Assembly: GCF_010093595.1 (NCBI RefSeq)
Contig: NW_022985446.1
Coordinates: forward strand, 1,225,269-1,289,268
DNA length: 64,000 bases
Reading direction: 5' to 3'
DNA from: Mytilinidion resinicola
Lineage: Eukaryota > Ascomycota > Dothideomycetes > Mytilinidiales > Mytilinidiaceae
This document shows, in pieces, positions 2,860 to 29,203 of this stretch. A program made the translations under genes and the position numbers. A model generated the notes under the pieces. It saw only the letters and a list, made by a program, of their open reading frames with translations. It searched no databases and was not told the origin of the DNA. Numbering within the stretch: position 1 is the stretch's first letter; every line of letters begins with the position of its first letter.

Positions 2860-5077
2860 TGATTTGTCGTGATAATCATCTGTCCATCAGTGAGATCGAT
2901 GATGCGGCGGTGGCTACCTACAATTCCTCTTCATCTATCTATCTCTCTATCTATGCATCGACTCTATACCTTTGCCACTACTAAACGCTATAGAGAAAAC
3001 TATTTGCATTTAAGCGTAATACAAAAATGTTAGGTAATATTATAGAAGCGTTAGAGGAGGTTTAACAAGCGCTTTATAATGCTATATATAAATATATATA
3101 CAAGTCCGCCGCTATTAATATAGAATATAACTTAAACAAGATAAATTATTTCTATCTATCTATCTACCTACCTACCTATCTATCTATCTACATATTAACT
3201 TTAGACCTTTAATAATAAGTTAGATGTAAAGATAAATTAAATAACCCTAATCTACTTCTATATAAACCCTAAATGCTCTCTCTATATTCACTAATAAAGA
3301 GAGTTGCTATATTCTTATTTATAGCTGTATAAATTACTTTAAATATTAGCTACAGCAGCACGGCTCTAATAAACTCGCTATTGGAATTCAATACCTTAAA
3401 ACTAGTGGAAGCTTTTTTTATATACCTCTTTATTTTCATTTTCCTATATTTTTTTTCCATAAGTACAGTATAGAAATAGTACTAGAGCAGAAGGCACCTA
3501 GTCCCCACTATTATATTAATTCTTACCTCTTAAGTATCTATTAGTATAAAAGCAAGTAGAATTAATATATATAAACTAAAGCTTTCATATTATACCTATA
3601 CTTTTATGCAGCTAGCTTATCTAATACATATAAACGAAGCCGCTTATATTAATATCTAATTGCGTCCTATCTAACTAGAATGCTTGGAAAATATATATAG
3701 TAAGATAGAAAAGGACCAGGTCTTTAAATAGCTTAATATATATGTAAAGGTTGTATAGGAAGGATCAACAGATAGAGCGGTAGCAGGATAGAAGTTAAAT
3801 TGATTGAATTAGATATCGTTCCATCTTATAGAGGTTGGGCCTCTATATACTCGAATATATAAGTACTAGAAGTTTTTCTATGCTTATTAAAAGCATAGTT
3901 TGTAATGCTTATATAAACTAGCATATTCTAGATACTTCCATGTATTACAAATACAGTTTAATTTATAAGAGAATCTTCCACAAGATTCCATCTGGTTCCA
4001 TCTAATTCTAGATAGTTCTAGAAGCTTAGAAATATAGCGCTTACTATATTCTAACAATATATATCTAAGTCTTTAATATAAGTTAAATAGATTCTGTGCT
4101 TTAAGAAAAATTGCTAAGGTTACATTTAAAGGTATAGAATCTAGTAAATCTATTTTAAAAATGTATATTAACTTTAAGCGCAGATATAGGTAGTGTATTA
4201 AGTTAATTATCTTAAACATGCTTGTTTTATATAACACAGCTTAGCATTTTACATTCCAATACTAAAAGTTCTAAGCTTAGCTAGGGTATACTTACTTTTT
4301 ATATTCTCTTACAACTATATAAGCGACTAGACAATCCCTTATAATATATAGTATATAAGATTAAAGAGTTATTAAAAGAATCTAGATAAACTAAGATAGA
4401 TAGATAGTTATCCTGCGATTAATGTTTACTTTTTTTTAAAAAGAAGTAATATAATAAATTATAATATATTTAACTCTACTACGCGTTCTTCTTATATATT
4501 TATTCTTAACCTATATTTTATACAAAAGTTTTAGTAGCATTAACTTCTCTAGATTGTATTTTATCTAGTTTAATATCATTTCTTTAATACTTAGGCCTAG
4601 TACGCTGGGTACTACCTTATAGACGGCAGTTGTTGTATCTCTACTAATGTGGCCTTTTATCTCTTCTTAAAGGGTAGATATTTTATTAGTAGTATAATAG
4701 ATTTTTAGGAGCAAGATATCTCTTTGCTAAATATACTGAATCCAACCTAATTTTAAATATTATTATTCTGCTGCTGCTTGTACACCTCCTTTTAGACGTT
4801 ACAATATTTGTCCCTTAATTATGCTTTCTTTATTCAAGTACATTAAGAAAGAGGAACTCCGCAAGCTTGCGAAATCCTAGGAAGATAAGAGGGGTTTCCT
4901 ATTAATGCCTTTCCATCTTTATACTTTGGCTTATTCTTGTACTTTCGTTTCGTTGTTATTATTGTTGTTATAATAGTTAATAGCCTAAAGCGATTAATTG
5001 TATTAGATCTAAACTACAAATACACGCTGCCTATATACCTTGTTATCAAGAGAGTAATATAGTTATTTCTCCCTCTG
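2860..5077. repeat. AT-rich, gene-free block, probably a RIP-degraded transposable element
   Basis: From about 2.9 kb the sequence becomes strongly AT-rich, full of TA dinucleotides and stop codons in all frames, with very few CpG. No frame longer than about 60 codons is seen. This is the usual look of repeat DNA mutated by RIP in ascomycetes. The parent element cannot be named from what is left. It lies directly upstream of the NLR gene, whose own stops are of the same mutation type. Confidence 0.7.
3151..3192. repeat. TCTA/CCTA microsatellite
   Basis: About ten tetranucleotide units of TCTA with three CCTA variants lie within the AT-rich block. A shorter related run is at 2932-2955. Confidence 0.9.
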
Positions 5078-5372
5078 CTTGTCTTGTGCCATGCGGCATC
5101 ATCATACTACATCATCGTGCTGAGTGATATAGGAGACTCCGTAGAAGGCTTTACAAATTGGAAAGGATGCACGGCCAATCAAGTAGCTGTTCAAGCAGCT
5201 AGGTTATAAGAAAGCATCATTGGTGTACGGCTTGATGAATCGGATAGAATGGAATGGCCTAGCCAATTCTAGTAATAAAGTCAAGTTTAGAACAAGAACT
5301 AATTCTTAGAATAAGAACTGATTTGTAATTATACTTGTAAAGTAGAACCTGGTTCTATACTAGGTTCGTAAC
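5078..5372. mobile_element. Possible solo LTR or retroelement fragment
   Basis: A stretch of mixed composition follows the AT-rich block. It contains short internal direct repeats (GAACAAGAACTAATTCTTAG, then AATAAGAACTGATT, then AGAACCTGGTTCTA) and ends in GTAACA, as LTRs of fungal retroelements often do. The 5' border and a target-site duplication are not clear, so the call is tentative. Confidence 0.3.
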
Positions 5373-5732
5373 ACAGGTAGCCTGCACAAGTCAGATAGGT
5401 TATACGAATCGGCATGGTAAATCGGACAGGGTGCGTTTGTTCGAATTGATGTGAAGAACGAGCCGAGCATTATAAGGTAGTTAATAAGAAGATATGTATA
5501 CCTAGGGCGGGGCCCGTGGCAGTTGTATTTGTATTCTTCCGGTAGCCAGAGCCCTGTAGACGTCATTACAGCACTTGTTAATATATATGTGTCTCGTACA
5601 CATAGATCGTCTTTTCCACTGCCTTACAGGCTCTGTTAAACATAAATAAAGCAGTAATCCACAATTCCCTTGTTCTAATTGAGATCTAACCATCCTTAGG
5701 TACTATATACACTTTTCTTATGCTTGTATACA

Positions 5733-5870
5733 ATTGCCCAGCACCTCTTAAGACCCTACGGTATATCTTAAACAGCTATAAAATCTTAGTTGTGGCAACC
5801 CTAATAGCTCTCCGGGCCACTTCAGACGGTGTTGGGTTGCCTGGTTCCCACTTAATATTCAACGGTGCCT
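5733..5870 (+). repeat. Dispersed repeat family 1, copy A
   Basis: Shares a diagnostic core (TAGCTCTCCGGGCCAC) and flanking blocks (GCCCAGCACC upstream; CCCACTTAATATTCAACGG downstream) with copies at 45178-45310, 57260-57390 and, inverted, 13744-13878. The copies are diverged and carry no coding frame. Confidence 0.65.
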
Positions 5871-5953
5871 TCCTCTCATTACTTTACTACAGTTTTTACT
5901 TGATTTCTTACGTTTACTCAGATCTTTCTGTTTATGGGGCTACGATTTAGTTA

Positions 5954-5995
5954 TAACGACTTAGCCCCCCGCTCGACCGGGGGGCTAAGACGTTA
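5954..5995. repeat. Inverted repeat, 18-bp arms, 6-base loop
   Basis: The arms are TAACGACTTAGCCCCCCG (5954-5971) and CGGGGGGCTAAGACGTTA (5978-5995). They pair except for one mismatch and leave CTCGAC as loop. The block of six C/G pairs is striking inside AT-rich DNA. It may be a transposon end, a foldback element or a stable RNA hairpin. Confidence 0.8.
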
Positions 5996-6469
5996 GTTTT
6001 CAATTAGATGGTACTCAGCCCACTAGATGTGCTTTGTCTAATCGACAGACAAGAATCTAACTATATATTCTCTGCTCTTATATACAAGTGACATGCGCTG
6101 TGTAGCGCTTCTTTCCGTGCACCAAGTAGGCCACGAAGGCTGAGACAACGACGGCAGCCTGCACTAATAATGCTCAACTGGCGGTGACTAGGACAGCTAC
6201 CGGGAAGCACGCAAATACAATACCATCAATTGAGGTTCACTATGTCATAGATACGACGATGTAATAATTAAAGAGAGGTGTGCATATGACCCGTGTTTTT
6301 CTACACACCATACCAGAGCTGCCCATAGGCGTTCGAAAAAGAGCCTATAGAGAGAAACCCCAAGAAATAGACGCCAGTGCTCAAAGATGCCAATAGAGAG
6401 CCCATTATATCCCATTTTGAATGCTGGAGAGACATGAACAAAGGAGTTTCATCTACCGTATTGCAAGTC

Positions 6470-7637
<1,168 letters not shown>

Positions 7638-8742
7638 GTTGGCAGTAGGGAGTCGCAGGGCTGGAGGTGCGCAGTCAAATATTATCCTGCGGGCGGATTC
7701 TTTCACCTGAAGCCGAGCAGAGGCCCGGGAAATATCTTGCCCGGAGGGGTCATCGCCCTCGGCCGTCCAGCCAATCACGGCCCGCTAGAATCAAAGCGGC
7801 CGAGAATCCCTTCAGGCATAGTGCCCTTTGAATCTCAACGACATTCGATGCTGCTGACCTCCATCACGACGATACCGCCGTCTGAGGCGGCCCCGCAAGC
7901 CTTCCACACTGTTCAAAACGGTTCATTTAATCTTCCGAAAATGGCTGAAGCAGGTCAGACAGCGCCAAACCAGTGTACCTATACAGATAAGTACGGCATT
8001 ACAGTGCCTCGTCGTTGATTCATGTACACTCTTCTGCCACTGCTTATGTTGCTCCAACATGTTTATCGAAATCTGGAGCGACAAATAGCACAGTCAGCTA
8101 TGTGCATTCATCAACCTCTGCCTGAGGTGGCCCTGTAAGCTTACTGGTTGTTCCAATTAACAAAGTTTGGGATTTCGAAAGTATATTGAGGAGCTTCAAG
8201 TAGCGGCAGACAAGTGTACACGGATCTGTGACGAGCTATTGTAGACTATTGGTATACGTGGGGTTTGACGCGTATATGACACGCCATGGGAGCTCCCCAG
8301 CGAGGTTCGCAGTTTCGAGACTCCCCCTGTATTTTGATATTGCTTCAGAGCACTTTAAGCAGGGGCACAGAGTGTCAACAGGTTGGTTTGCTGCCGTACT
8401 AGAGCATATCCAGAAGCTTCATTGCCAGTAAGTGCCAGCGTAAGTCATAGCATGGCAGGAAAACGACTTCTCCGAAATGGGGCCAAAGCAATTTCATGGT
8501 TATCAGAGCCATCCTCTCGTGTGAAAGCTGGTGTGTTTGGTGCTGCAATGCTTGATAGTAGAGGTGAACCGACGCGTAAGGCACGATACTCCGACAGTGA
8601 CCTTCGAGGTAGGAAGGCGCCAAATGCCTCCGCACCGCGTAGGTATCTCATAGTCTCTACCCTCTCATCCCGTCTCCATCTTCTCATTACAACTCGAGTT
8701 CCGCAGTCCCTGATCCCATCTCTGTGCTTTGCGTGCTTCGCC
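7638..8742. other. Intergenic region between hemB and the 8743 gene, with a MITE-like element
   Basis: This is the divergent upstream region of hemB and of the gene at 8743. It contains the inverted-repeat element at 8023-8220. Short frames in it (for example 8383-9045) have no domain and mix with the 5' part of the next gene. No RNA gene was seen. Confidence 0.6.
8023..8220. mobile_element. MITE-like element, family 2, copy 1
   Basis: The left end TGTACACTCTTCTGCCACTG is matched in reverse by the right end, which reads as CGTGTACACTTGTCTGCCGC on the opposite strand. Further inside, GAAATC/GATTTC pairing continues. The same ends occur at 50142-50271. Size about 200 bp, no coding capacity. 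Homology on the right may run on to about 8250. Confidence 0.6.
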
Positions 8743-23700: not shown

Positions 23701-24354
23701 GCCGGAGGGAGGAGGAAAGCTTGCGATTAGGTCCAACGCCTAATATCAACGACTTTGCGGATGCGCTGCTATCGATCGTGTTCGAGCACGCGAGGCATCT
23801 AAGGGGCCAGAAAAACGGATTTCTGAGGTCGATTGTGTTCTCGAGCTTCAATCAGGACATCTGCACGGCACTGAATTGGAAGCAACCGAACTGTAAGTCA
23901 GCCCCTCATGTGATCTCGTGAAAGCGGAGCTAATGCTCGACAGACCCCGTTCTCCTCTGTAACGAACTTGGTGCCGACGCGCCTAGCTCGACTAGCGATC
24001 CCTATAAAGTAAGGAGCAGCGGTCGCACCACGATCTCGGTTAAAGAGGCCGTGCAGATTGCGAGAGACAATAATTTCATGGGCTTGATCTGTAGCTCGAG
24101 ATTACTGGTAGGCCATCACTCCGCCACACTTCCCATACAAAACCGTTAACACAGCGTAGGACCTTGCTCCCGCCCTGATCGAATCAATCAAAACCGCCGG
24201 CCTCGTTCTTATCACCGACATCTCGGATGCGAACACGCGCCAGCGCGGCTCCCTCGCCGTCGCCGCGCCGTCGTCATATCAGGTGCCCCAGGGCGTGGAT
24301 GGGTTCTTGAAGGGGAATGGCGTGCTGAGGTTCAATGAAACAATTGATATGTAA
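20790..24354 (+). CDS. pho81: Pho81/NUC-2-type phosphate sensor (SPX, ankyrin, GDPD-like)
   Basis: Regulator of the Pho80-Pho85 cyclin kinase in phosphate starvation signalling. Ten exons: 20790-20791, 20907-20991, 21045-21167, 21217-21267, 21317-21457, 21510-21557, 21608-21625, 21675-23892, 23944-24107, 24160-24354; 1014 residues. The start codon is split: AT at 20790-20791 and G at 20907, giving MKFGKHIQKRQLEIPEYAAS, the standard family N-terminus. A later ATG at 20806 would give a longer non-conserved leader. The SPX domain spans about residues 1-200, ankyrin repeats about 300-560, and a degenerate GDPD-like domain fills the C-terminus (for example SSLSGEYARLFVQLTSDGVP). Exon 7 is only 18 nt. 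The SPX part should bind inositol pyrophosphates, by family knowledge. Confidence 0.94.
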
Positions 24355-24964
24355 GGTTTGAGATGCGAGAGTGGGATAAAAGTATATGAATGGTGGCGCA
24401 TGATCATCCTGGTTTCGAATAAAAAGTGAATTTGGTCGCGCTAGATCTGGAATAGAATGGGCTGTGCAGGATATCAGAATATGTATGGCTGCGTGGGTGG
24501 TCATCTGACTATAGTGTGCTGCAGTATTTCCCATAGGGGCGAATGGGTTTACAGCATATCAATCTCAGCAACGTCTGATCCTTATGTGGGGAAGGATGAG
24601 CTAGCCGTCGAGGTGTTCGCAATCAAGTCCTTGTAAGTACGGACACCACATAGACCTGATGCCCGGCCGACTCGAAGAAACAGTTGTAGCGCTCGACGAT
24701 GACACCACCGATAGAACGCCTTGGCTTGGTCCTCGCTACTTTTGCTCAGCCAACCCTCTCGCGTCTCCAAGACTTTATTGTGGATATACTGTTTGCGCAT
24801 GGTCAGATACATACATACGAAGAATATACGTGTTTATCTTTCGAAGTATGGCGATTGCACCCATATTGCTTGCGACCTTCTTTCTATCTAGTTGGTCGTG
24901 GAAGGGGCAATAAGAATGGCCGCAATCTTTGAAGAAAAGCCCAATATATTCGCTACCTCCCTGT
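24355..24964. other. Intergenic region between convergent pho81 and the Cys-repeat gene
   Basis: Convergent 3' ends; about 600 bp. Nothing beyond short chance frames is seen. Confidence 0.5.
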
Positions 24965-25969
24965 TCACAAAGCACCTATAATGGCGTTGGCGGCGGCAAA
25001 AATCATCGCTAATGCACCTACGAGCGCACCATCAATCGCTGACCCAACCCCAATCAGAGCCTCCTCCACAGAGCGCGAGAGAGATTGTCCACAGTATCCG
25101 CAATTGGCTTTGTGAGGTTGTGCTTGTTCATACCCAGAAAAGTAATGAGTATTCTTGCAATTGGTACCTTGAACGCTACGCAGATTTCTGGAATGCTCAG
25201 CCAGCAATTGCTCTTTGACGGAGGGTCCAAGATGTTTCTTACAGGATGCGCAAACAGCCAGGTGAGGCTGTCGTCGTTCGTACAAGGGCACGTAGGGAAG
25301 CTCGTCGCAGTTGAGACATCTCACATAGTGCAGCTCTATGGATCGCGGGAGGTGGTTTCCACAGGACCGGCGTAGACTCTTACGAGGATCTGTTCGTTCG
25401 CGTGGCTGTAGATAATGAGCCGCTCCGCATTTGAGGCATGCAGTCACGATCTCGAGAACAGAAGAGGCGAGAGAGCTTGAACAGTATGCGCAGATAGCTT
25501 TGTGAGGCTGTGACCGTTCGTAATATTGCATGGAGTGAGTTCCACCGCAATTGACGCAGACGACCTGGTCGGGCTCTACAAATTGTAACTCAGCGCGAAC
25601 ATATATAGCTTGGTAATACTGGAGGACGTCAGCTTATTTCTCGCGCGACGAGAAAAATAGACCGCATTATAATAGTACCTTTGCAGTGGAGGAACCCATC
25701 ATAATCAAGCGTACTTCTTTTAGACTGCGGGTCGCGCCTGTTGAGGGTGAGTAGCACAAAAACGGGCCAGTGAAGCTTGGCTGCAGCGATGGGATAGCTT
25801 GATTGATGATGATGAACTGGATGAGATCCCCGTGGTCAGAACTGAGTAGATAAGGCCTCTCATCGGGCGGTCTGGAGGATACGAGGTTGCCGATTGGGCA
25901 ACCAGTTGCCTTAATCGGGCTCATCTGCAGAGCCAGCTGAGCGGTTCCCGTCTCCCGCACCCTCCCCAT
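24965..25969 (-). CDS. Cys-repeat (CxxC) protein with C-terminal hydrophobic segment, unknown
   Basis: I do not recognise a named family. The model is exons 25969-25679 and 25618-24965, 314 residues; the intron (GTACTA..CCTCCAG) is needed to keep the first CxxC repeat in frame. From about residue 115 there are four repeats of about 43 residues, each with a CxxC pair near its start, a YERxQPHxAxC centre and a second CxxC, ending in L-x-x-S-V. Repeats two and four have lost some cysteines. This looks like a set of small zinc ribbons. The C-terminus is a glycine/alanine-rich hydrophobic stretch (about 25 residues) with a small-residue pattern reminiscent of membrane-active or prion-like tails. 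It sits next to the gasdermin-like gene. The start may be internal, since the first 90 residues are not recognisable. Confidence 0.65.
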
Positions 25970-26051
25970 ACAATATTGTAGGCCTGCCAGGCCGAACCAA
26001 GCCCAAACTTCGCTCTCCTAGAACACATCATAGAGCACCTGCACCACGTAG

Positions 26052-26720
26052 ATGTGGTATGTAGTTGCACCCGCGATGAAGGCCGCGGCGAGTTTCAGGA
26101 TTTCAGATCTTGGTATCTTGTACTTGCAGTTTTTCAACAAGCTGGAGACATCCTTCATGAAAGGCGACTGGAAACTCGCGGAATATGTCAAAGCTAGCAT
26201 ACTTCAGCCTACGGTCAAACAGTACTTCGAGGCCAACCCAAAGAAGACGCCGTACATGATCATTGGGTTCAAAGTCGCTAGAGGCGCCGAAAATATCAGG
26301 AAGAAACTGCGCGAAGGTGGTGCAGACGCATCTGTTGGAATTGATGGAACCATGGTTGGCATTCCGGTCTCAGGAGGTCCCAAAGCTGGTTTCAGCAACA
26401 CCAATTCCAATTCAGTGGGATTTGGCGGGTCTTCGGACTTCGTATTTGCGCATCGTGTGCGGAAAATAAAGATCAACTGGAAGACCATGGATATTGAAAG
26501 TGAAGATTACATTCGTGGAGCAGCATATCATGAAGGAGTAGAAACGTAGTCTACCTTGGACGAGGAGACTGCTCCGGCGGAGATCGAGTCGGCAGAGCTA
26601 GATGAAGCCGACTTTGGTATTGCCATGAATGTAGATAGCATCCCCTTGGATTGGGCCGTGGCCACGGTCAGAGACGAGCTGGACGATGGCTATTGCTTGG
26701 TAGTAAAGATTGAAACTTAG
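26052..26720 (+). pseudogene. Gasdermin-like pore-forming protein gene with an in-frame stop
   Basis: Residues 1-165 before the stop resemble fungal gasdermin-like proteins (RCD-1, HET-Q1): FRISDLGI near the start, PYMIIGFKVARG (67-78), GTMVGIPVSGGP (99-110) and SSDFVFAHRVRKI (127-139). Family members form plasma-membrane pores in regulated cell death after a protease removes a short C-terminal tail. A TAG at 26547-26549 ends the frame, but the same frame stays open for 56 further codons of acidic sequence to TAG 26718-26720, where it meets the stop of the convergent subtilase gene. I read the post-stop part as the former C-terminal tail. The first 10-15 residues of the family may be missing or lie in an unseen exon. 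The family call is from memory of motifs and neighbour context, so moderate. Confidence 0.6.
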
Positions 26721-29203
26721 TCGCCCGTCGCCGAACCCGGAATCATCTCTGAAACCACCGACCAGGAGTATATCTGTCTCAATTTCATGGAGAACACTCC
26801 AGAGATCGCAGTTTTTACGTCTGGGTCCAAAAGGGTTTCGGGAAGAATGTACTGATATACATCTTTAAGATCGCGGTCAATCATGCTGATGAGCATCTGT
26901 CTCATGCCTCCAAAATTCTCTAACATCTTGTAATTTCGGAATTGAGTGCGGTGAATTCTTTTCCAATATATGAGTTGGGCCACGACTGCCGCTGCCACAG
27001 GTGTTGCAACTGATGTTCCCGATGCTCTCTTCTACGGTGCACCTTCTTCTACTATGAGATCCAATTCGTCTTGCTTCGCGTCTCCTTTCGCGTCTTTTGA
27101 CCAAGTTGATTTCACTTCTTCTCCAAGAATTGAGAAATTGTCTTTACTGGATGTTGCAGGTGGGTTGAATTCGTGTGGAGTGCCAGCATAGTTCGCAGCA
27201 TTGACACAGATGACCAGACCAAGATGGCTGGCAGGATAGGTCACGTTCCCGATTTTGGAATTGCCATTGTTTGAGGCTGCAGCTACTAGAATACGGTCTT
27301 TGGAATAAGCATAGATGATAGCTTCCTTTACATCTGTGGGGATGCTGGAGAAGCCAAGGGACATGGAAATGACATCCACTCCCCAAACGTCCACGGCATA
27401 ACGAATTGCCTTAAAGGTGATTAGACTGTATATGTACATTTGAGGGATAATTGCTGACATACCTCTGCAATCCTAGCGGTACATTCGGGGTCAGTTCTTT
27501 TGTCGAAGGTCCTGTCAAGGGACACTCGACCAACGTGAAGCTCAGCGTTCGGAGCAAGTTGAAGAACAATCCCGGCAACATGAGTTCCATGACCGCATGT
27601 GTCTGTCCCATTCTTGGTAAGAGGAGGGTCGGCCGTGAAATCCATGTATCCATCATCAGTAAGTTTACGGGGAAGCCCGTTCTCCCCTCGAGCACCCCAC
27701 TTAGGGCGAATCCAATGTTCCTTGATGAAGGGGTGCGAAGAATCGATCCCGCTGTCTAGGACGGCAACCTTGACCTTCCTGATGTCCTCAGGTGCGTTCC
27801 TGAAAAGCTTTTGATATCTTGCGTGGAAGTCATTGATGAAATTGTCAGTGGCTAGGTTTCTTTTTCGATTAGCAAAAGATTTTACGGATGCAAGATACAG
27901 GAAAACATACTCTTTTTGATCAGACCGTACAGTTGGTTCGTCAAAAAGAGCGCCTTCAAATGGCTCGGCACCACTTGACAGTGCGCTCTTTATGGATTCT
28001 GTTTTGAGGGACGGAGATTTTGCCTGCGATTCTGCCTCGAAAGTATCTGAAATTGTCTCGCTTGGAATGGCCAGTGGATCGACCGAGCCGGAGATTGAAT
28101 CCCCACGTGCTCCCTCAGCCCCGTGTGGATTACTAGATGCGAGTGAGTTTGCGCAAGCAATTAGACTGGCCGCAGTCTCTGAGTTAGTAAGGTAGTGCCG
28201 TGTAAGTGATAGAAGCCTCTCGAATGCAACTGGAGTCCACTCGTGCTGGTACGTGGTGGAGGCAAATTCGGTAGGCAGCGTAAACCGGGAGTATAGAAAC
28301 CCGGCAGCTCTAGAAAACCTGAAAAGCTCTGTTGCTGTATGCTCTGGATCGGTGATCATGTGAGTTGTAACTCTCACCAAGCCCATCGTTGCTTTGGGCG
28401 AAGGATAGCCCAGCCATCGTGGGCGCCCTCCTGCGAAAGCACTATCTCTCAGCTCTCGTATTCCTGAACTAATGCTGACAAAAGAATAGACTTTCGAAGA
28501 GCTCCAGATCGATGCTGTTTCATCCAAGGCCTCTAACGCCGGGTTGCTAAACCCTGATATAGCTGCGCTGACACATAGCATTGAGTCTATGCGTACACCC
28601 CGAGTACGCATCGGGGTAGCGATGGAAGCCAAAGCCGCTTGCAAGATGGTGCATCCACTAACGATCGCCTTTCCGTTGGTTTTGGAGGTATAGCTACGGA
28701 GCCTCTCTGGAGTTCCCAAGTTCTCAAGATCAGTGACTAGTATGACGGTATGGCACACATGGTCCTGATCAAGTTGCGCCTCATATAGAGGTTTCCTCTG
28801 CAAAACAAATAGTGCTTTCAAGGCCTTCTCGCATCGGTAGGACGTAGAGAAATCGCGAGACTCTCAAAACTATGGCGTGTAGCGGAACGCATTTTGTTGA
28901 AACCAAAGTATGCATTCGTTGATCGTCTGGTTGCAGCATGGTGAGTAGAGCAACGTCAAATGATAAAGGCAAAGAGTCTACCATTCTCAACCTGCCAAGC
29001 ATCAGAGCGATGATAGCCCCCCATTCCGTCCCACATATTAGATCAAAGTGATAGTAAGGCCTAGAGTCTACTAAGGGATGCTCCTGGTGATCCCATTTGA
29101 TGTGTTGAATAAGCTCTTCTAGAATCACCAAGGCGGACAGACACCGTGCACTTCCCCCGTCAAGCGATAGCACCCGTATTGATGGAGTGAGCATAACAGA
29201 CAT
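26717..29203 (-). pseudogene. Patatin-like/subtilase (peptidase S8) fusion protein, interrupted
   Basis: Model: exons 29203-28982, 28926-27463 and 27409-26717. The N-terminus RVLSLDGGSARCLSALVILE and FDLICGTEWGAIIALMLGRL is a patatin fold, but the nucleophile motif GTSTG is GTEWG here, so lipase activity is unlikely. The C-terminal half is a subtilase with Asp in VAVLDSGID, His in CGHGTHVAG and Ser in SGTSVATP. A TAG at 27032-27034 lies 5 codons before the catalytic serine motif; in my model a TAG (28870-28872) and a TGA (28864-28866) also lie just after the first intron, although a different splice could avoid those two. The gene is tail-to-tail with the gasdermin-like gene. HET-Q2 of Podospora is a subtilisin-like protease that activates the gasdermin-like HET-Q1; I infer an analogous role before decay. 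Confidence 0.7.

Follow-up and report, generated by a model that had tools for sequence, protein, structure and literature searches.

Analysis of a 64,000-nt stretch of Mytilinidion resinicola DNA (the window) showed a gasdermin-like gene adjoining a gene for an S8 protease, which together are probably a decayed copy of the fungal gasdermin/HET-Q2-like S8 protease pair. We observe homology to both partners, their tail-to-tail arrangement, interruptions in both genes, and complete gasdermin frames next to S8 genes at other places of this genome. An earlier sequence-only reading had proposed a two-gene incompatibility or defence module; its homology and pairing hold up, but not its working state as the sequence reads. 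A large N-terminal part is missing from the gasdermin, which also carries a premature stop, and the protease ends short of its catalytic serine, so that the window copy would not be a working two-gene module. With both genes interrupted, the locus thus resembles a damaged duplicate of a system surviving elsewhere in the genome.

The gasdermin-like frame (26052-26720, plus strand) consists of the following parts:

26052..26546, plus strand: gasdermin-like open frame of 165 codons, corresponding to the second half of the pore-forming domain (matches to RCD-1 and the C2 paralogue, LETxF position)
26057..26129, plus strand: possible 73-nt intron, GTATGT...TTGCAG, spanning the ORF start (good GT-AG pair; unproved)
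26547..26549, plus strand: in-frame TAG interrupting the gasdermin-like frame (read from the sequence)
26550..26720, plus strand: continuation of the same frame, with C-terminal tail and final TAG (shuffle test against the C18 tail)

The 26052 ORF matches RCD-1 (PDB 8jyz) with an E-value of 0.006 (query residues 44-139, RCD-1 residues 133-236) and the C2 paralogue from its own genome with 1.5e-14. The gasdermin-like protein previously placed at 26052-26720 is therefore supported by homology, but its frame is broken by the TAG at 26547-26549 and a large N-terminal part is missing; the similarity to fungal gasdermins (RCD-1/HET-Q1) covers the second half of the pore-forming domain only. Profile comparison, suggested earlier as a check, did yield a bGSDM match, but at E 0.034 only, with no Pfam match above cut-off, and single-sequence AlphaFold2 returned an unusable model of this piece (mean pLDDT 37.3). 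These values and the unusable fold model would be compatible with the ORF being no gasdermin and the likeness arising by chance, an explanation to which we give next to no credence in view of the C2 match, the expected S8 neighbour, and a chain of matches to HET-Q1 via the C18 paralogue, which in turn matches the solved structure of the HET-Q1 pore (chain 9uv9, E 8e-6, residues 7-209).

The LETxF motif lies at residue 31 of the ORF, compared with residues 100-115 at the equivalent place in four paralogues, and the ORF is about 70 residues too short ahead of the first shared motif, leaving the pore-forming domain incomplete. No gasdermin N-terminal sequence was detected in 24300-26200 by a search that a very divergent one could escape (with C18 as query, it found C6 at 3.5e-9 and C2 at 1e-4 and missed C35), and none of the three plus-strand frames contains a stop-free run of more than 45 codons in 25500-26051. 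By eye, the 26 residues that open the ORF look plausible as the true gasdermin N-terminus; this was rejected by a shuffle test, in which 1348, 698, 2137 and 2101 of 5000 shuffles reached their scores against the N-termini of C18, C2, C6 and C35, respectively. At the other end, the tail scores 71 against the C18 tail (shuffles 26.4 +/- 5.0; 0/5000 as high), and its score against the C2 tail is not significant (reached by 2588/5000 shuffles). This C18-like tail sits behind the TAG, not in the same open frame as expected of a short C-terminal inhibitory tail, and none of the 24 in-frame GT-AG spans over the TAG has a canonical donor.

The protease gene is encoded on the minus strand:

26717..27031, minus strand: 3' part of the S8 gene with the catalytic-serine motif SGTSVATP (PF00082 at E 0.0094 and alignment)
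27032..27034, minus strand: in-frame TAG just ahead of the serine motif (read from the sequence)
27035..27409, minus strand: middle exon part of the S8 gene (PF00082, E 1.2e-7)
27410..27462, minus strand: 53-nt intron, GTATGT...AAG (C18 S8 intron at matching codons)
27463..28863, minus strand: patatin-like domain (C-terminal half), followed by a linker and by the Asp and His motifs of S8 (PF00082 at E 2e-10; alignment with a patatin of the same genome)
28781..29203, minus strand: patatin-like domain (N-terminal half) in a separate frame, with GTEWG as its nucleophile motif (PF01734 at E 1.7e-6 and CapV alignment)

The last stops of the two convergent genes overlap (S8, 26717-26719; gasdermin frame, 26718-26720), confirming the orientation described before and placing the S8 gene, like those of Q2-L proteases, directly beside a gasdermin gene. 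The Peptidase_S8 domain is spread over three pieces, with PF00082 matching the Asp/His part (frame 27424-28863) and the middle part (frame 27032-27472) at the E-values given above and the Ser part under its curated cut-off. Thus, the Asp, His and Ser motifs noted earlier are all present in the DNA but not in one open frame, since the TAG precedes the Ser motif. In the C18 S8 gene, a GTAAGA...TAG intron is located directly before the same Ala-Ile codons as the 27410-27462 intron. All eight in-frame GT-AG spans over the TAG at 27032-27034 are devoid of a canonical donor.

The patatin-like domain described as joined to the protease is found as a patatin-like piece, but in a separate frame: the gene shows an unexplained frame change near 28870, and among the GT-AG spans listed as joining the patatin and S8 frames, none has a canonical donor. 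Its C-terminal half (within 27463-28863) aligns with a patatin of the same genome (E 2e-5) and has no Pfam patatin match. By alignment, both catalytic residues are missing, with GTEWG in the window versus GTSIG in CapV at the nucleophile site (Ser of GxSxG) and VSAAISG versus VDGATG in the patatin of the same genome at the DGA/G site (Asp).

Both genes could be intact and oddly spliced, with unannotated exons or weak-site introns removing the stops and supplying the gasdermin N-terminus, so that the pair works like HET-Q1/HET-Q2. The good GT-AG pair at 26057-26129 fits such splicing, and weak-site introns skipping each stop, as well as a 43-nt intron bridging the patatin frames, exist on paper and count against decay. 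We consider this unlikely, however, because the searched upstream region shows neither a gasdermin N-terminus nor a longer open run, canonical donors are absent from the spans over either stop, and such an event would be needed in both genes. Moreover, many of the spans would delete residues common to the paralogues; the S8 donor GTAAAG at 27147 is fair, yet its intron would delete conserved sequence.

Our survey covered the window's own genome, with six gasdermin-like places and about 13 S8 genes. An S8 gene lies within 10 kb of four of the six places, for which the chance is ~1.4e-8; as C18 had been found by reading around an S8 match, it was left out of a second figure (three of five, chance 1.7e-6). 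Protease-family genes occur within 10 kb at 5/6 places, and the counter-case named earlier, homologues never near proteases, therefore fails. Gasdermin and S8 genes stand together at C18, C35 and C2 (C2:521k) too, which upholds the proposed pairing of the HET-Q1/HET-Q2 kind and agrees with the published rule that about 80% of gasdermin genes in fungi have a protease gene next door and about 63% have an S8 one (PMC10197012). The pairing is already well known for this family.

At C18 and C35, complete gasdermin frames adjoin S8 genes with all three motifs, and the two genes converge as in the window, with gaps of 169 and 165 nt. DUF7580 frames are found upstream of the C35 S8 gene, where the window has the patatin-like part instead, and a TPR frame upstream of that at C2. 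In contrast to the convergent window pair, the C2 genes are divergent and separated by a possible 215-aa ORF. One TAG interrupts each of the C2 gasdermin, the C2 S8 gene and the C6 gasdermin, and an AT-rich gasdermin relic contains 8 TAG and 6 TAA in 900 nt. No canonical donor was found for an intron spanning the C2 S8 TAG; the same listing gave one for the C18 S8 stop, which was taken as an intron end.

All five in-frame stops without a canonical intron (window and C2 gasdermin and S8 genes, C6 gasdermin) are TAG, with one per partner in the window and at C2. This would fit a UAG that is rarely translated in these genes and so guards a toxic pathway against accidental activation, which we regard as highly improbable: the pattern was spotted post hoc, other parts are missing too from the window and C6 gasdermins, and the relic is not TAG-only. 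RIP-like C-to-T changes at CpA favour TAG as well, and only the C2 gasdermin stop (next codon CAA) has what we take to be a partial likeness to a leaky context. The aconitase gene in the window (Pfam E 3.7e-75) ends in TAG, indicating that TAG is a working stop in this genome; TAG as a general sense codon was rejected on this ground. The locus has ordinary RIP indices, and RIP is therefore unproved as what broke it.

In Podospora anserina, HET-Q1 (278 aa) and HET-Q2 (388 aa; PMC10989679) likewise combine an S8 protease with a gasdermin-like protein whose C-terminal tail is short. In a working ancestor of the window pair, an S8 sensor protease with a patatin-like N-terminal part devoid of catalytic residues would, as in that system, clip the tail off the gasdermin, and the remainder would form plasma-membrane pores and lead to cell death. 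In the sequenced genome, neither clipping nor pore formation should work. Compared with HET-Q1, the window gasdermin is interrupted and without a large N-terminal part; compared with HET-Q2, the protease is interrupted and has a patatin-like part. Its apparent multidomain architecture with a C-terminal S8 domain resembles Q2-L proteases. The abundant architectures named for these in PMC10197012 carry TPR, ANK or WD40 repeats, and no patatin-like part was seen among those named. RCD-1 of Neurospora crassa shares sequence similarity with the window gasdermin but is itself activated by a second allelic variant and not by a protease (PMC12881547). Our literature search turned up no fungal gasdermin gene described as a pseudogene or with a premature stop, nor any with a calpain or a patatin-S8 fusion; this does not prove their absence. 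Should a working relative turn out to carry a dead patatin part on its S8 sensor protease, this would suggest that enzymes of this sort can be retained as sensors.

Next to the pair, a further minus-strand gene was recognized:

24965..25633, minus strand: open ORF encoding Cys-containing repeats (repeat and hydropathy tests)
25619-25678, minus strand: possible 60-nt intron of this gene (placed by eye)
25679..25702, minus strand: possible first exon, starting MMGSSTAK (placed by eye)

This ORF, noticed earlier as a Cys-repeat gene, encodes four repeats, each about 40 residues long and bearing CxxC pairs, some of them degenerate, and all six repeat pairs outscore all 2,000 shuffles. A hydrophobic segment of about 30 residues forms its C-terminus. 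The best Pfam match, Jiv90 (E 1.1e-4), is under its cut-off, the best solved structure (E 0.92) is not convincing, and the AlphaFold2 model (pLDDT 40.7) is unusable. Tblastn revealed no relative among candidates from a scan of bacterial and archaeal contigs. The suggestion that the gene is the third member of a three-gene locus is unsupported, with no second copy in its own genome and none in the stretches around the other gasdermin loci there.

The pair could also represent, as a compatible special case of decay, the null haplotype at an incompatibility locus kept polymorphic by balancing selection, where other strains have a whole gasdermin, protease or both and the sequenced strain carries the silent form. 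Frames open over long stretches and the C18-like tail weigh against decay, which must be recent or not total; an apparently recent decay is in line with such a haplotype, and Aspergillus fumigatus hetB and hetE are known examples of het loci with null or absence alleles (PMC11138114). With one strain only, a null allele and a fixed pseudogene fit alike, and we hold the null haplotype to be possible but somewhat doubtful. More speculative still is a version in which the working form elsewhere would be a gasdermin activated by an S8 sensor protease whose sensing part is a dead patatin domain, perhaps with the hydrophobic-tailed Cys-repeat protein as third component.

Motif reading alone can pass off a broken locus as a working one. 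A single genome here holds one cell-death gene family in several states, from complete through singly interrupted and truncated copies to an AT-rich relic, a mix predicted by birth-and-death evolution of fungal immune loci, which has been published for the fungal gasdermin family (PMC10197012).

The window (G000:C10:1225269-1289268, in a genome of 47.1 Mb and 44 contigs) holds a gasdermin-like gene tail to tail with a subtilase (Peptidase_S8) gene, and the sequence-only reading had proposed a related two-gene module of the HET-Q1/HET-Q2 kind. In its genes, its introns and its AT-rich island the window has a fungal appearance. The families were recognised correctly, but both genes are broken in the window: what it holds is a broken representative of a known gasdermin-protease kind, and perhaps a null allele.

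Features of the locus (positions in the window)
24965-25633, minus strand, with a likely but unproved first exon (25679-25702) to 25702: Cys-repeat gene with four CxxC-type repeats, open
26052-26546, plus strand: gasdermin-like frame, 165 codons
26547-26549, plus strand: in-frame TAG of the gasdermin-like frame
27032-27034, minus strand: in-frame TAG of the S8 gene, upstream of SGTSVATP
27410-27462, minus strand: standard intron of 53 nt in the S8 gene; the S8 gene of locus C18 also has an intron at that place

Neurospora RCD-1 (8jyz) matched the frame 26052-26546 with E 0.006 (residues 44-139), and a paralogue on contig C2 of the same genome matched it with E 1.5e-14, which upholds the gasdermin-like family call. 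Profile searches, suggested earlier as a check, gave E 0.034 with the bacterial-gasdermin profile and nothing over the cut-off in Pfam. Among these sequence comparisons, the own-genome support is stronger than the RCD-1, Pfam and bacterial-gasdermin profile results.

Own-genome searches placed gasdermin-like matches at six or more sites including the window, named here by contig. Among solved structures, the C18 gasdermin (292 aa) hits the HET-Q1 pore chain 9uv9 (residues 7-209, E 8.2e-6). The C35 gasdermin hits no gasdermin in the PDB but does match the bacterial-gasdermin profile (4.8e-4). Both frames are complete and convergent with S8 genes that carry the three motifs, interrupted by presumed introns, and DUF7580 frames lie upstream of the C35 S8 gene. 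At C2:521k, a gasdermin gene with one TAG and an S8 gene are divergent, and between them there is a possible 215-aa ORF. A TPR frame lies upstream of this S8 gene, which has a TAG ahead of its His motif for which there is no canonical intron. HET-domain frames (PF06985; L006 1172-1477, E 6.6e-23; L009 8078-8962, E 1.1e-23) are also found near the gasdermin-S8 loci at C2 and C18, at distances of up to about 10 kb. The C6 gasdermin also has one TAG, a search for its C-terminal part found none, and it has a calpain-like neighbour:

L041 (G000:C6:780000-789999) 6681-8417, minus strand: calpain-like gene, PF00648, E 3e-15, beside the interrupted gasdermin

This neighbour reads GNSW at what we take, from the calpain motif, to be the catalytic-Cys position, and its product may be a pseudo-protease. 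The weakest match, C2:1241937-1242287 (L013, L031; E 2.3e-4, single query), has three TAG in the matched stretch and lies in several kb of DNA of about 28% GC; 900 nt of its frame hold 8 TAG, 6 TAA and no TGA, and this relic looks RIP-degraded.

The proposed pairing with proteases is borne out, with an S8 gene within 10 kb at four of the six places and the calpain-like gene at C6. Given at least 16 Peptidase_S8 matches, folded into 13 genes, the chance of four in six is about 1.4e-8, and that of three in five 1.7e-6 when C18, which came to light in the surroundings of an S8 match, is left out. Nine S8 genes have no known gasdermin neighbour; tblastn with three gasdermin queries found no gasdermin around the five of them whose surroundings were searched. 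PMC10197012 describes a birth-and-death family whose fungal members mostly adjoin protease genes, S8 in about 63%.

The window gasdermin is incomplete at its start. Its LETxF motif or equivalent lies at residue 31, versus 100 in C18, 103 in C2, 100 in C6 and 115 in C35. Sensitive tblastn with these four N-termini gave no more than chance-level matches in 24300-26200 (the best, with E 0.01 over 18 residues, lies opposite the Cys-repeat gene), and 25500-26051 contains no plus-strand stop-free run of more than 45 codons. With the C18 N-terminus as control query, the matches listed included C6 (3.5e-9) and C2 (1e-4) and missed C35; the search could therefore overlook an N-terminus that has diverged very far. 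Residues 1-26 of the ORF show no significant similarity to the four N-termini, and this region may be an intron (GTATGT...TTGCAG, 26057-26129, plus strand).

Beyond the TAG at 26547-26549 the same frame continues for 56 codons as a tail resembling that of C18 (score 71 against 26.4 +/- 5.0 for shuffles, reached by 0 of 5000) and not, beyond shuffles, that of C2 (2588 of 5000 reach the score). The TAG sits 27 residues past the end of the RVRKI motif. The cleavage residue of HET-Q1 given in PMC10989679, F238, is 27 past 9uv9 residue 211, provided that chain and protein numbering agree, and residue 211 aligns with the RVRKI motif end in C18, although the linkers align poorly. Because of this matching spacing, and if the numberings agree, the TAG would yield roughly the protease-activated form; we infer that such a stop can be tolerated solely because parts of the pore-forming half are missing in any case.

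The subtilase had been credited with all three catalytic motifs and a joined patatin-like domain. All three motifs are present in the DNA: Pfam detects Peptidase_S8 as three minus-strand pieces, 27463-28863 holds VLDSGID (Asp) and HGTHVAG (His), but the TAG at 27032-27034 precedes SGTSVATP. The patatin-like half is found upstream (E 1.7e-6), but in a different frame, and since candidate introns at the junction lack a canonical donor, the junction is either a frameshift or a weak intron, perhaps of 43 nt. The nucleophile motif of the patatin-like half reads GTEWG versus GTSIG in CapV, and its Asp motif VSAAISG versus VDGATG in an own-genome patatin.

In-frame GT-AG spans of 40-160 nt cover each window stop, and none has a canonical donor (0/24 for the gasdermin, 0/8 for the S8 gene); one does occur (GTAAGA, 66 nt) at the S8 stop of C18, which we read as the end of an intron. 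Many candidate spans would also remove residues common to the paralogues. The donor search speaks against splicing rescue, though it falls short of proof. In the genes of the gasdermin loci, each of the five in-frame stops that lack a canonical intron is TAG (window gasdermin 26547 and S8 27032, C2 gasdermin in L006 and S8 in L007 at 3525, C6 gasdermin in L041), a pattern spotted after the fact; own-genome patatin-family matches contain 11 TGA, 11 TAG and 11 TAA, which we take to lie mostly in introns. Read-through of UAG in these genes is very improbable, if slightly less so given that the C2 S8 stop lacks a canonical intron: the window aconitase gene terminates in TAG, which is therefore a genuine stop here. 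RIP-type C-to-T mutation at CpA would favour TAG, but the RIP indices of the window locus are ordinary. An AT-rich island at 3001-6000 of the window (GC 0.27-0.41 per kb; 0.46-0.65 in the remaining 1-kb bins) has RIP-like dinucleotide indices.

In Podospora, HET-Q2 cuts the tail off HET-Q1, and what is left of HET-Q1 kills the cell, according to PMC10989679 and PMC12881547. A working ancestor of the window pair would have used the same chemistry, its S8 protease removing the gasdermin tail and the patatin-like part acting as a non-catalytic sensor. From the present sequence as read, neither a complete executioner nor a complete protease could be made.

The Cys-repeat gene had been pointed out as a third, novel gene next to the pair; position is its sole tie to the two. 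We found no second copy in the genome, no relatives among the bacteria and archaea whose genomes were scanned and no convincingly related solved structure. Its four repeats are related (6/6 pairs score above all 2,000 shuffles), its C-terminal segment is hydrophobic and alanine- and glycine-rich, and the gene may be functional.
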